Assembly (NCBI GenBank): GCA_035527535.1
Contig: DATLAK010000149.1
Span: 1 to 58,559 of the forward strand
Length of the DNA: 58,559 nucleotides
Source of the DNA: Armatimonadota bacterium
Lineage (GTDB): Bacteria > Armatimonadota > Hebobacteria > GCA-020354555 > CP070648
Direction of reading: 5' to 3'
Every line of letters starts with the position of its first letter. The stretch's first letter is position 1. A program made the translations under genes and the position numbers. The notes under the pieces are model-generated. The model ran no database searches. It had not been told where the DNA came from and saw only the letters and a list, made by a program, of their open reading frames with translations. Below, one piece after another: positions 1,717 to 27,086 of this stretch.

Positions 1717-1771
1717 GATGGCTAGGCCCTTCGGGCCGCCATGGCGGGCCGATCAGGCGGCCCTAGCCATC
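1717..1771. repeat. CTAG-containing inverted repeat, left part of the CTAG element
   Basis: A perfect 10-bp inverted repeat, GATGGCTAGG at 1717-1726 and CCTAGCCATC at 1762-1771, encloses a CCCTTCGGG hairpin. It abuts the 111-bp repeat at 1784-1894 and shares its CTAG-hairpin style. It is probably part of the same structured element; copy 2 near 10.8 kb lacks this part. Confidence 0.75.
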
Positions 1772-1783
1772 TATCGGGGCCCT

Positions 1784-1894
1784 CGGTGGCTAGGTCGCAA
1801 GGCGACCGCCACGTCCCTAGGTCCCGACTTCGTCGGGCCGGGATGGCGGCGGCTACTAGCCGCCTAGCCAGCGGCCAACGGCCTAGCCGCTGTG
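1784..1894. repeat. 111-bp CTAG-rich multi-hairpin repeat, copy 1
   Basis: Read against 10841-10951 this segment is identical over all 111 bp. It is a chain of hairpins: GGTCGC/GCGACC, CCCGAC-TTC-GTCGGG, GGCGGCTA-C-TAGCCGCC and AGCGGC/GCCGCT, with CTAG several times. CTAG is normally rare in bacterial DNA. No coding function is apparent. It sits between the divergently oriented aminotransferase and tRNA transcription units. Nothing else was seen in the 1594-1983 gap. Confidence 0.9.
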
Positions 1895-7430: not shown

Positions 7431-7460
7431 TTGACGGGCCGCGCGCTTACCTGCTATCAT
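7431..7460 (+). promoter_or_regulatory. Promoter of the valS T-box leader
   Basis: TTGACG at 7431-7436 and TATCAT at 7455-7460, 18 bp apart, immediately precede the T-box leader. Confidence 0.75.
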
Positions 7461-7877
7461 TCCCCCACCAAAGGCCGAGAAGGGGAGGAGTAGCCGCCTC
7501 GCGCTCGCCAGAGAGCCGGCCCCGGGTGGACATTCGCGCAGCGAAGCCGCTTGGGTGTGAGGGCCGGCACAGCGCCGGCGGCGAACGTCGCCCCCGAGCC
7601 GGGACGGTGAAGGGCCGCAGTCCTGCGTAACCGCCCCCGGGCACGCCCGTTACCGCGCCAGAGATGTCCCAGGCATTGTAGGAGCCGCGTCTGGCAACGA
7701 GATTGGGCGCGACTTCCTACAGAAGTCGCGGCTTTCTCGCGCGGTCTGAAGACCACGCGCCCAAATGCCCCGGACAATCAAGGTGGCACCGCGGAAGCGC
7801 TCCTTTCGCCTGGCTAGGCCCCGCTGGGGCCGCCATCCCGGCCTCCGGCCTAGGGACTTGAGCGAGAGGGGCGTTTT
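7461..7877 (+). promoter_or_regulatory. Valine T-box riboswitch leader
   Basis: T-box RNAs sense uncharged tRNA and control read-through into aminoacyl-tRNA synthetase genes. Seen: AGAGAGCCGG in the apical part of stem I, a GAAC-GTC-GCCCCCGAG specifier segment with GTC (valine codon) at 7587-7589, and the T-box motif AAGGTGGCACCGCGG at 7780-7794 that pairs with the tRNA CCA end. A terminator follows: CGCTCCTTTCGC (7798-7809) can pair over 12 positions, two of them G-U, with GCGAGAGGGGCG (7862-7873), followed by TTTT. The 52-nt terminator loop holds a CTAG-type element. The leader directs valS, consistent with the specifier. Confidence 0.93.
7812..7855. repeat. CTAG-type repeat inside the T-box terminator loop
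   Basis: Within the terminator loop, GGCTAGGCC at 7812-7820 and GGCCTAGG at 7847-7854 flank a GGCCCC-GCT-GGGGCC hairpin and CGCCATCCCGG. The arrangement GCTAGGCCC, small hairpin, GGGCCGCCAT is shared with 1721-1742. It looks like a relative of the CTAG elements at 1.7 and 10.8 kb. Confidence 0.65.
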
Positions 7878-7896
7878 GCGTTGTAGTGTTCCCACG

Positions 7897-7920
7897 GTGG
7901 GGCAGGCGTCCTCGCCTGCC
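7897..7920. repeat. Small palindromic repeat (GGCAGGCG...CGCCTGCC)
   Basis: The core GCAGGCGTCCTCGCCTGC recurs at 23808-23830 and, diverged, inside valS at 9850-9873, each preceded by GTGG. It lies between the T-box terminator and valS. The remaining sequence to 7979 shows no further feature. Confidence 0.7.
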
Positions 7921-7989
7921 AAGGTGCGCAGCCGCGGCGCGACCTAGCCACTCAGGACAGGCGGGCTGTGCCACATGCTGGAGGACCGA

Positions 7990-10752
7990 ATGGACGCGTC
8001 GCAACTGCCGAAGACATACGACCCACATGCGGTAGAAGCGAAATGGTATCGCTTCTGGGACGAACGCGGCTACTTCCACGCCGAGGCGGATTCCGGCAAG
8101 CCGCGCTACTGCATCACCATCCCGCCGCCCAACGTCACCGGCGAGCTGCACCTGGGCCATGCGTTGTGCTATGAGGTGCAGGACATCCTGGGCCGCTACC
8201 ATCGGATGACGGGCAAGCAGACCCTGATTCTCCCGGGTACCGACCACGCCGGCATCGCCACCCAGAACGTAGTCGAGCGCCAACTCGCCCAGGAGGGAGT
8301 GACGCGCTACGAGCTGGGGCGCGAGGGCTTTCTGCAACGCGTGTGGCAGTGGAAAGACGCCTACGGACGGCGCATCGAGGAGCAGTTCCGCGCCCTCGGC
8401 TTCGCCTTCGACTGGGGGCGGGATCGCTTTACCATGGACCCCGCTTACAGCGACGCCGTGCTCGAGGCGTTCGTGCGGCTGTTCGACGAGGGCTACATCT
8501 ACCGCGGCGAGCGGGTCACCAACTGGTGCCCGCGCTGCCGCACCGCGATCTCCGATATCGAGGTCGAGCACCAGGAATCACCCGGCCACCTCTATCACAT
8601 CGCCTATCCCTACGCGACACGCGAGGGCGCGGTCGTCGTCGCCACCACCCGCCCCGAGACTATGCTCGGCGACACCGCGGTCGCGGTCAACCCCACCGAT
8701 GAGCGCTATCGCGACGTCGTCGGGGAACGCGTGATCTTGCCGCTGGTGGAGCGGGAGATACCCATCATCGCCGACCACTACGCCGACCCCGAGTTCGGTA
8801 CCGGTGCGGTCAAGGTTACCCCCGCCCACGACCTCAACGACTTCGAGGCGGGGGAACGGCACGGCCTCCCGCGCGTCAAGGTCATCGGCGACGACGGCTG
8901 CATGACCGCCGACGCCGGGCGTTTCGCCGGCATGGATCGCTTCGCGGCGCGCGAGGCGGTGGTGGCGGCGCTGCGGGAGGATGGACGGTTGGTCGAGGTT
9001 GAGCCCTACGCCGTCTCCCTGGCCGCCTGCGAGCGCTGCGGCACGGTGCTGGAGCCGCTGCTGTCCGAGCAGTGGTTCGTGCGCATGAAGGAGTTGGCCC
9101 TGCCCGCCATCGAGGTCGTCGAGAGCGGGCGGGTGCGGTTCGTGCCCGAGCGCTGGGCTGACGTGTATCTCGAATGGATGCGCAATATCCGTGACTGGTG
9201 CATCAGCCGACAGTTGTGGTGGGGCCACCGCATTCCCGTGTACACCTGCGGCTGCGGCAGAGTCGTCGCGGCCAAGTCCGCGCCCGAGCGCTGCCCCGCG
9301 TGCGGCGGCCCTTCGACAAGCTCAGGACCGCCCCTGCGATGCGAAGGGGGGCCGTCCCGAGCGGCGTCGAGGGGCGGCGCGATGACCCAGGACCCCGATG
9401 TCCTCGACACCTGGTTCAGCTCCGCGCTGTGGCCGTTCGCGACCCTGGGCTGGCCCCGGCAGACCCCGGAGCTCGAATGCTTCTACCCCACCAACCTCAT
9501 GGTGACCTCGAGTCAGATCATCTTCCTATGGGTCGCGCGGATGGTGATGATGGGGCTGCACTTCATGGGCGACATCCCCTACCCCGAGGTTTACATCAAC
9601 GCCACCGTGCTCAACGCGCAGGGCCGGCGCATGAGCAAGTCCCTGGGCACCGGCGTGGATCCGCTGGAGACGGTGGAGAAGTACGGCGCCGATGCGACGC
9701 GCTTCGGCCTCATCGCACAGTCGAGCGGCCAGCAGGTGCGCTTCGAGATGGAGCGCGTCGAGACCGGGCGCAACCTCTGCAACAAGCTGTGGAACGCGGC
9801 GCGCATGGTGCGCATGAACCTCGATGAGGCGGCATACGAGCGCGCCCGGGTGGCACAGGCGCCCTCGCCTGTGTCCCTCGCCGACCGCTGGATCTTGAGC
9901 CGGCTCGAGGCGACGACGCAAACGGTGACGCAGGCCTTGGGCGACTATCGGGCGGACGAAGCGGCGCGGGCGCTCTATGATTTCTTCTGGGGCGAGCTGT
10001 GCGACTGGTATCTGGAGATAGCCAAACCCGCCTTGCGCGGCGATGATCCCGCAGCGCGCACGCGAACCCAGGACGTGTTGATCTACACGTTCGAGCGTAC
10101 TCTGAGGCTGCTGCATCCGTTCATGCCCTTCATCACCGAGGAGCTGTGGCAAGCGCTGCCCCATGACGGCGAGTCCATCATGATCGCGCCGTGGCCTGTC
10201 CTGAGCGGAGTCGAAGGGCCGGAAGGGCGCGCCCTGCTGCGAGACCAACAGGCGGAAGAGGCGATGAGCCTGGTGATGGCGGTAGTCACCTCGGCGCGGC
10301 GTCTGCGCATCGAACGCGGAGTGGAACCGGGGGCCGCGGTGGAGATCATCCTCACCCCCGATAGCAAGCGCGCGACCGAGGCTCTGACCGCCGGTCAGGC
10401 CATGATTGCTCATCTCGTCCATGCAAGCTCGATCACCTTGGGCGAGCCGGCGGGTGATGCCGAAGTCGCCACCGATGTGATACCCTGGGAGGGCGAGCAG
10501 GTGCGGGTGTCGGTGTCCACGGTGGCCTCCGCTGAGGAACTGGCCAGGGAGCGCGACCGCCTGCAAAAGGAGCTGGTGACACTGGAAGCCGAGTTGGCGC
10601 GCACGCGCGGGCGCCTGGATAATGCCAACTTCATCGCGCGCGCGTCGGAGAAAGTGGTAGCCGAAACCCGCGCCCGCATCGAGGACGCCGAGCGCCGGGC
10701 CGTAGCCTTGCGCGAACGCATGGCTGCTCTAGCTTCCCGCCTCGGGGGATGA
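7990..10752 (+). CDS. valS: Valyl-tRNA synthetase with in-frame repeat insertions
   Basis: ValS charges tRNA-Val with valine. The 920-residue product has the class Ia elements: PPNVTGELHLGH (HIGH motif near residue 54), the CP1 editing domain with CPRC and CPAC zinc knuckles, DVLDTWFSSALWPF, RRMSKSLG (KMSKS near 547), the anticodon-binding domain and a C-terminal coiled coil (LARERDRLQKELVTLEAEL). The ATG at 7990 has GGAGG five bases upstream; ATG 7975 lacks a site. Three short segments look foreign to the family and coincide with palindromic DNA repeats: PSTSSGPP...ASRGGA after CPACGG, VAQAPSPV before SLADRW, and VLSGVEGPEG after APWP. All keep the frame. Expression is controlled by the upstream valine T-box. 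Confidence 0.96.
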   Translation: MDASQLPKTYDPHAVEAKWYRFWDERGYFHAEADSGKPRYCITIPPPNVTGELHLGHALCYEVQDILGRYHRMTGKQTLILPGTDHAGIATQNVVERQLAQEGVTRYELGREGFLQRVWQWKDAYGRRIEEQFRALGFAFDWGRDRFTMDPAYSDAVLEAFVRLFDEGYIYRGERVTNWCPRCRTAISDIEVEHQESPGHLYHIAYPYATREGAVVVATTRPETMLGDTAVAVNPTDERYRDVVGERVILPLVEREIPIIADHYADPEFGTGAVKVTPAHDLNDFEAGERHGLPRVKVIGDDGCMTADAGRFAGMDRFAAREAVVAALREDGRLVEVEPYAVSLAACERCGTVLEPLLSEQWFVRMKELALPAIEVVESGRVRFVPERWADVYLEWMRNIRDWCISRQLWWGHRIPVYTCGCGRVVAAKSAPERCPACGGPSTSSGPPLRCEGGPSRAASRGGAMTQDPDVLDTWFSSALWPFATLGWPRQTPELECFYPTNLMVTSSQIIFLWVARMVMMGLHFMGDIPYPEVYINATVLNAQGRRMSKSLGTGVDPLETVEKYGADATRFGLIAQSSGQQVRFEMERVETGRNLCNKLWNAARMVRMNLDEAAYERARVAQAPSPVSLADRWILSRLEATTQTVTQALGDYRADEAARALYDFFWGELCDWYLEIAKPALRGDDPAARTRTQDVLIYTFERTLRLLHPFMPFITEELWQALPHDGESIMIAPWPVLSGVEGPEGRALLRDQQAEEAMSLVMAVVTSARRLRIERGVEPGAAVEIILTPDSKRATEALTAGQAMIAHLVHASSITLGEPAGDAEVATDVIPWEGEQVRVSVSTVASAEELARERDRLQKELVTLEAELARTRGRLDNANFIARASEKVVAETRARIEDAERRAVALRERMAALASRLGG
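9309..9374. repeat. Intragenic palindromic repeat in valS, site 1
   Basis: CCCTTCGACAAGCTCAGGAC at 9309-9328 is matched in inverted orientation by GTCCCGAGCGGCGTCGAGGG at 9354-9373. It encodes about 22 extra residues between CPACGG and TQDPDVLDTW in the second zinc knuckle region. Confidence 0.85.
9850..9873. repeat. Intragenic repeat in valS, site 2
   Basis: GTGGCACAGGCG-CCCT-CGCCTGTG is a hairpin-forming relative of the repeats at 7897 and 23808. It adds VAQAPSPV before the conserved SLADRWILSRL. Confidence 0.75.
10198..10218. repeat. Intragenic repeat in valS, site 3
   Basis: GTCCTGAGCGGAGTCGAAGG at 10198-10217 is the single-arm form of the site 1 repeat. It encodes VLSGVEG after APWP in the anticodon-binding domain. 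Confidence 0.8.
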
Positions 10753-10840: not shown

Positions 10841-10951
10841 CGGTGGCTAGGTCGCAAGGCGACCGCCACGTCCCTAGGTCCCGACTTCGTCGGGCCGGGA
10901 TGGCGGCGGCTACTAGCCGCCTAGCCAGCGGCCAACGGCCTAGCCGCTGTG
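10841..10951. repeat. 111-bp CTAG-rich multi-hairpin repeat, copy 2
   Basis: Identical over 111 bp to 1784-1894 and in the same orientation. It lies between valS and yqeG. The flanks differ: in this gap the only other structure is AT-rich repeated wording (AATCTG, ATCTGTGG) at 10763-10800 and 11042-11076. The gap 10753-11085 has no convincing promoter. Confidence 0.9.
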
Positions 10952-26349: not shown

Positions 26350-26365
26350 TCGGCCGTCGTAGTCG

Positions 26366-26466
26366 TAGGGGCCGATCTCCTGATCGGCCCGCCAGGAGGG
26401 ACGGGCCGGGGTGGAACCCGGCCCTACGGGATGGTCGGAGGTAGGGGCCGATCTCCTGATCGGCCC
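26366..26466. repeat. RAYT-associated REP sequences, upstream cluster
   Basis: Module 1 (TAGGGGCCGATCTCCTGATC plus GGCCC) occurs at 26366-26390 and 26442-26466. Module 2 (GGGACGGGCCGGGGTGGAAC, then CCGGCCCTACGGG) lies at 26398-26430. Each is an imperfect palindrome, and the order is repeated on the other side of the transposase. Confidence 0.9.
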
Positions 26467-26480
26467 GGAGGGGGAGGGCA

Positions 26481-27086
26481 ATGATTGAACGGGCCGTGGA
26501 ATGCCCGAAGCGCAAGCAACTTCGGTTGCCCGGACATGACTATGGCGAGCCCGGTCATGCCTATTCCCTGACCGTTTGCGCACGGCGGGGAGCGTCGCCT
26601 TTTCGCCATCGGACACTGGCGCAAGAGGCGGTGGCGACCCTGCAGTCCCTGGAGGCTCTCAGCGGCGTCAAGGTATTCGCATACTGCGTGATGCCGGACC
26701 ACGTTCATTTGGTATGCTGGGCGGGGGATGGTGCGGATTCCATTCCCTCGTTCATTCGCAGGTTCAAGTCGTTTGTGAGCCACGCTGGCCGCAGGCTCGG
26801 TCACAGCGGGCAGCTGTGGCAGCGTTCGTACTACGACCACGTCATACGCAGGGCTGAGGATCTGGGCGAGATCTGTACGTACGTAATCGAGAATCCGGTG
26901 CGGCGGGGGATGGTGCAGGAGGTTGGCGAATACCCTTTTGCCGGGATGCCGAATCCCGACGCGGACAGGTCGGGGATGGACCCGGCCCCTACGGGATGGT
27001 CGGAGGTAGGGGCCGATCTCCTGATTGGCCCGGAGGGGAAGGGACGGGCCGGGATGGAACCCGGCCCCTACGGAGATGACACGTAA
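26481..27086 (+). mobile_element. REP-associated tyrosine transposase (RAYT, Y1_Tnp)
   Basis: RAYTs are single-domain HUH nucleases that nick REP sequences. The 201-residue product has the HUH motif in YCVMPDHVHLVCW (H74 and H76), a downstream QRSYYDHVIR with the probable nucleophile Y118, and the family sequence YVIENPVRRGMV. GGGGAGGG lies just before the ATG. The last ~35 codons run into the downstream REP, so the true protein core ends near residue 160. The gene is flanked on both sides by the same REP modules and interrupts the pilus-linked gene run. Confidence 0.92.
26972..27073. repeat. RAYT-associated REP sequences, downstream cluster
   Basis: A partial module 2 (GGGGATGGACCCGGCCCCTA) starts at 26972, module 1 is at 27007-27031 with one change (GATTGGCCC) and a full module 2 at 27041-27073. 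The order mirrors the upstream cluster as direct repeats. Confidence 0.88.

Follow-up and report, generated by a model that had tools for sequence, protein, structure and literature searches.

A 46-nt mobile unit has entered the terminator loop of the T-box leader that precedes valS in the 58,559-nt stretch of armatimonadotal DNA analyzed here (the window). Both this insertion and the existence of the dispersed repeat family to which the unit belongs are firmly established. The unit splits a strand of the antiterminator, and the reading that we consider most likely, with some reserve, is that tRNA-dependent switching was thereby weakened and not abolished.

The valS Leader

The elements of the leader, on the forward strand unless marked otherwise, are as follows.

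7431–7460 (+): promoter of the valS leader, sigma-70-type and TG-extended, TTGACG-18-TATCAT (10/12 matches, 0 in shuffles)
7468–7810 (+): valine T-box leader, stem I through the 5' portion of the expression platform (RF00230 and homologous leaders)
7587–7589 (+): specifier codon GUC (Val) in the context GAAC-GUC-GC (GAAN-GUC in the valS T-boxes of relatives)
7780–7790 (+): T-box AAGG, the 5' strand of helix A1 (7780–7783), and the 7-nt bulge UGGCACC (sequence; alignment of relatives)
7791–7810 (+): canonical antiterminator helix A2 (7791–7796/7804–7809) and C7810, with which the A1 3' strand begins (energy-evaluated structure)
7798–7809 (+): 5' strand of the terminator stem (folding)
7811–7856 (+): mobile CTAG hairpin-pair unit of 46 nt (missing in G001, whose platform is identical; member of a genome-wide family)
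7811–7835 (+): hairpin 1 of the unit, TGGC-TA-GGCCCC.gct.GGGGCC-GCCA (folding)
7836–7856 (−): hairpin 2 of the unit, inverted, TCCC-TA-GGCC.gga.GGCC-GGGA (folding)
7857–7859 (+): CUU, the rest of the A1 3' strand, cut off from C7810 by the insert (structure evaluation; comparison with G001)
7862–7877 (+): 3' strand of the terminator stem (7862–7873) and UUUU (7874–7877) (folding)
7975–10752 (+): valS (Pfam tRNA-synt_1, Anticodon_1, and Val_tRNA-synt_C)

Judged by its sequence the leader is a genuine T-box, its covariance match to RF00230 (7468–7808; 40.7 bits, E 1.3e-7) lying under the gathering score of 93. Homologous leaders precede valS in G001, G005, G011, G018, G023, and G034; four of five such leaders score 93.6–114.6 bits against the same model and L060 scores 50.4. 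The specifier GUC matches the downstream gene and occupies the same position in the valS T-boxes of relatives, a tRNA-Val(GAC) gene is present in the genome, and both promoter hexamers are recognizable in the G001 leader. The valine T-box of the preliminary description is thus upheld by a subthreshold RF00230 match, a specifier placed as in relatives, a promoter, and valS downstream. Translation more likely starts at ATG 7990, which is preceded by GGAGGA. One strong ValS match was found in the genome, and the interval between the terminator and valS yielded no consensus promoter.

The bulge residues UGGC (7784–7787) mismatch A73 of the three tRNA-Val genes found in the genome. As UGGC is common to the valS T-boxes of G001, G047, and G057 (loci L048, L055, and L058), it is a lineage feature older than the insertion, and decay caused by the insert is ruled out as its origin by G001, which has UGGC without the insert. 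A match between UGGN and the discriminator is found in the majority of T-boxes and not in all (TBDB, PMC7778990), and we may be looking at a tolerated C-A mismatch shared by several genomes of the phylum. Its occurrence in G001 also makes T-box discrimination in this lineage uncertain even without the insert. Two more T-boxes of the same genome, at L145 (G000:C185, 1501–1800, minus strand) and L144 (G000:C191, 1501–1777, minus strand), both have UGGU; one is of valine type (GUC) and precedes an apparent ilvD, the other is of phenylalanine type (UUC) and precedes an apparent pheS, both gene names being read from the translation only.

The Unit in the Terminator Loop

The terminator has 12 pairs (7798–7809/7862–7873) and a loop of 52 nt (7810–7861), both as first described, followed by a short U-tract of 4 U. 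What had been taken for one CTAG-flanked hairpin segment filling the loop is indeed a copy of the family, consisting instead of a pair of adjoining hairpins, both of which have a TA bulge of two bases (z-score −3.2 for the fold of 7775–7895). Its limits, formerly put at 7812–7855, are corrected to 7811–7856, and the resemblance noted to positions 1721–1742 is explained by a strict family copy at 1719–1741.

The nearest relative, G001, belongs to another genus of the same family, and its ValS is 64% identical over the searched part. Its T-box platform lacks the 46 nt and is identical at 64/64 positions across the junction (38 left, 26 right). The insertion therefore falls between C7810 and C7857 with neither target duplication nor deletion, and the limits 7811–7856 are unambiguous. 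The valS T-boxes of G005, G011, G018, and G023 have short terminator tops, and among the valS loci examined we found no related T-box carrying a CTAG repeat. This orthologous empty site, together with paralogous empty sites elsewhere (see below), bears out the proposal of a mobile insert in the terminator loop.

In the G001 leader (L048) distal stem I, at its apex, carries a different extension, about 100 nt long and rich in repeats, so other sequences have also inserted into this T-box. In the window two hairpins lie between the terminator and the valS start: a degenerate GTAG-REP-like one (7890–7925) and, in minus-strand orientation at about 7936–7952, a decayed CTAG hairpin. A CRISPR-DR29 match at 7896–7932 was rejected, being under the gathering score and resembling a degenerate REP.

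A Family of CTAG-Framed Hairpin Pairs

Two further clusters of the same family lie in the window.

1719–1889 (+): unit cluster upstream of tRNA genes, in which unit 1719–1769 has exact empty sites elsewhere
10844–10946 (+): second cluster, downstream of valS, near-identical to 1787–1889

The window contains 9 occurrences of the core pattern GGCTAGG-N6..24-CCGCC where 0.48 would be expected, and a count of the strict pattern TGGCTAGG-N6..24-CCGCCA over the whole 3.2-Mb genome gives 110 matches, compared with 2 when the pattern is reversed as a control. Among 291 sampled genomes of the phylum, strong enrichment is confined to this genome and several of the same class (strict copies: 34 in G005, 25 in G013, 21 in G009, 19 in G011, and 14 in G007), the remainder being at or near control level. 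G001 has at least 2 copies of the full hairpin pair.

A unit usually comprises two hairpins in inverted orientation, with the frame X4-TA-GG-stem-loop-CC-X4' and zero spacing. Within 88 clusters comprising 175 hairpins, 56 adjacent inverted pairs have exactly zero spacing, and the zero-spaced pair is also found in G005, G007, G009, G010, G011, and G013. Hairpin 1 has TGGC/GCCA, and hairpin 2 has CGGC/GCCG, TCCC/GGGA, TGGC/GCCA, or CCCC/GGGG. In 95 distinct hairpins nearly every position is Watson–Crick paired by several pair types (the fifth inner position, for example, by CG in 30, GC in 22, TA in 4, and AT in 2 of the distinct hairpins compared), so that stems vary while pairing is kept. Since stem sequences vary freely, only the X4-TA-GG/CC-X4' frame is conserved. 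The near absence of G-T pairs from these stems hints at conservation at the level of DNA rather than RNA. The 64 full pairs are combinations of 43 first and 43 second hairpins.

To find empty sites, the flanks of each unit were joined and the joined sequence was sought in the genome stretches around family copies. L015 has a 32-nt stretch identical to the surroundings of window unit 1719–1769 but without the unit, and the site of the L153 unit is empty in L015 and L164 (32/32). A 43-bp unit of L014 is lodged inside another unit, which is uninterrupted in L159 and L165 (31/32). These paralogous insertions are seamless, the target being neither duplicated nor shortened, and apart from a few chance-like direct repeats no target-site duplications were found at units. 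A unit is mostly preceded by R and followed by Y. Orthologous presence or absence between G005 and G009 was unreadable, since both intergenic regions, although their flanks align, are full of other repeats.

Units insert into one another and into GTAG-type REPs (L188, L178). At both of these loci a CTAG unit occupies the same point, between TCTCG and TGGC, near the loop of a different GTAG-REP hairpin. A general preference for hairpin loops or terminators was rejected, as flank complementarity did not exceed that of permuted flanks. After the unit ends had been redefined, a slight excess appeared (7 vs 3.3 expected at a score ≥10), of which valS is the extreme case.

Known Elements and the Search for a Mover

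REPINs are inverted doublets of palindromes that move as one unit (PMC3116915), and REP palindromes carry a GTAG (or CGTC) tag at the foot (PMC3733652). By its sequence organization the CTAG family is REPIN-like: like REPINs and REP-BIMEs, the unit is a short, mobile inverted palindrome pair of high copy number, with nested clusters, seamless empty sites, and a structured single strand bearing a bulge. It differs in that CTAG lies inside the hairpin, with no GTAG/CGTC tag at the foot, that the two hairpins have zero spacing and freely varying stems, and that no RAYT flanked by CTAG repeats was found; one RAYT of the genome carries its own GTAG repeats. Pneumococcal BOX, RUP, and SPRITE elements (PMC10969869) are likewise small structured repeats that insert into one another near regulatory signals, but are unrelated in sequence and architecture.

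None of the 30 Y1_Tnp loci examined in the class has CTAG hairpin-pair units beside it, and none of the three Y1 transposase genes of the genome is flanked by them. G011 combines 19 strict matches with no Y1_Tnp match in a genome that is 74% complete. A RAYT was accordingly rejected as the mover, the Y1_Tnp genes of the class not being flanked by units. A recurrently adjacent mover gene was rejected as well: when 1,260 open frames from the vicinity of units were compared all against all, no cluster lay near units in more than 2 genomes.

The window itself has a Y1-type (RAYT-like) transposase gene (26481–27083) with GTAG-tagged inverted palindromes (GTAGGGGCCGATCTCCTGATCGGCCC) on both sides (window 26362–27083), a textbook REP/RAYT arrangement unlike that of the CTAG units. 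At L001 (G000:C61) a Y1 transposase gene lies amid many copies of the repeat GGGCGCGGGGTTCTCCTAACCCCGCGGGGCCCGCG (1001–1440 and 1930–2095).

In its stem I with GUC, UGGN bulge, mutually exclusive antiterminator and terminator, and position upstream of valS, the window leader resembles other valine T-boxes (RF00230), differing in UGGC instead of UGGU and in the A1 3' strand split by a 46-nt mobile element. Mobile attenuators, insertion sequence or prophage terminators exapted upstream of genes (PMC2965389), are also mobile DNA that changes a 5' attenuator; there the element supplies the terminator, whereas here it lands inside a pre-existing riboswitch. We found neither hairpin pairs framed by CTAG nor a T-box terminator loop occupied by a mobile element described in the open-access literature searched, which is weak evidence of absence.

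Predicted Effect on the Antiterminator

A T-box antiterminator is made up of two helices, A1 and A2, with the 7-nt bulge UGGNACC between them; the bulge is where the end of the tRNA pairs, and A1 is the helix on which it stacks (reviewed in PMC7583486). Covariance alignments of relatives place the A1 3' strand at CCUU, within the terminator loop. In the window this strand is cut after its first residue, the 46-nt insert standing between C7810 and C7857, U7858, and U7859. Because the CCUU of the loop is the A1 3' strand, the insert is in the terminator loop and simultaneously inside A1.

We compared the two alleles with a nearest-neighbor model, subtracting the insert's own −27.9 kcal/mol from the occupied one; the energies are model values with rough multiloop terms that ignore cotranscriptional order and tRNA binding. 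The competing terminator and antiterminator can both be drawn. Folding with and without the insert left the terminator nearly unchanged (−30.2 kcal/mol empty, −29.5 occupied), while the canonical antiterminator lost about 6 kcal/mol, from −6.0 empty to −0.1 occupied as a four-way junction. The original suggestion that the antiterminator would go on working because the insertion is confined to the loop is therefore unsupported, the A1 3' strand being split and the modeled canonical antiterminator reduced to about 0 kcal/mol. An alternative antiterminator further upstream, pairing AAGG (7780–7783) with CCUU (7802–7805) and GCG (7791–7793) with CGC (7798–7800), is valued at −3.5 kcal/mol with and without the insert, and through it antitermination could still work.

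Since the repeat sits where the "on" fold must close, it has probably altered the switch and is not harmless in the loop, as far as these models go. Some read-through must persist because ValS is single-copy and no consensus promoter follows the terminator. Both flanks of the insert are still identical to G001, and so there is no sign of platform decay.

How the Switch May Now Work

In the sequence of events that we favor, a 46-bp nonautonomous element, an inverted pair of imperfect hairpins that probably spread as folded single-stranded DNA, would have inserted once and seamlessly between C7810 and C7857. Its two hairpins would fold by themselves, and because of this the 12-bp terminator should still form with nearly unchanged stability. 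As the insert splits the A1 3' strand, the canonical antiterminator would be weakened and the switch biased to termination. Residual antitermination may proceed through the upstream antiterminator (7780–7783/7802–7805) or through a four-way junction in which A1 closes together with the two hairpins, and enough antitermination or leak-through would be retained for expression of the essential valS.

Alternatively, the element could be a neutral passenger of no regulatory consequence in a lineage that uses the upstream antiterminator, which lies wholly 5' of the insert. We regard this as a less probable but reasonable account: the Rfam alignment of the window picks the upstream strand, whose pairing has the same predicted stability in both alleles and recurs in G001, where the platform is identical. 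However, the canonical antiterminator of the empty allele is predicted to be the more stable (−6.0 vs −3.5 kcal/mol), and the aligned relatives use the CCUU of the loop.

The insertion might instead have inactivated the riboswitch, leaving a constitutive leaky attenuator with valS living on read-through. The break in canonical helix A1 seen in the model and the mismatch of UGGC with A73 of the three tRNA-Val genes are both in keeping with this, yet UGGC predates the insertion, as G001 shows, the flanking platform is without decay, and ValS is essential and single, and we think inactivation improbable. We find it very hard to believe in an ancient, native origin of the extra hairpins within this terminator: long loops of unrelated sequence were sought among relatives' leaders, and the more distant G038 and G034 do have longer terminator tops, but these are unrelated in sequence and follow an intact CGUCCUU, whereas the 46 nt of the window make up a full-length member of a dispersed family and their site is exactly empty in the nearest relative, which already refutes this idea unless G001 lost the element by precise excision.

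A bolder reading is that the CTAG units form a distinct class of miniature elements, recognized by hairpin shape (TA bulge and GG/CC frame) and not by their arms and moved by something other than a RAYT, and that the valS copy turned A1 into a tRNA-sensing four-way junction. We offer this tentatively and consider it unlikely.

The family brings together variable arms, a constant frame with constant pairing, and scarless insertion in one mobile unit. The two valS leaders form a natural before-and-after pair, one T-box platform of 64 identical nt with and without an element at the helix by which the end of the tRNA is read, so that the tolerance of a tRNA-sensing switch for structured insertions is directly testable with two short templates.
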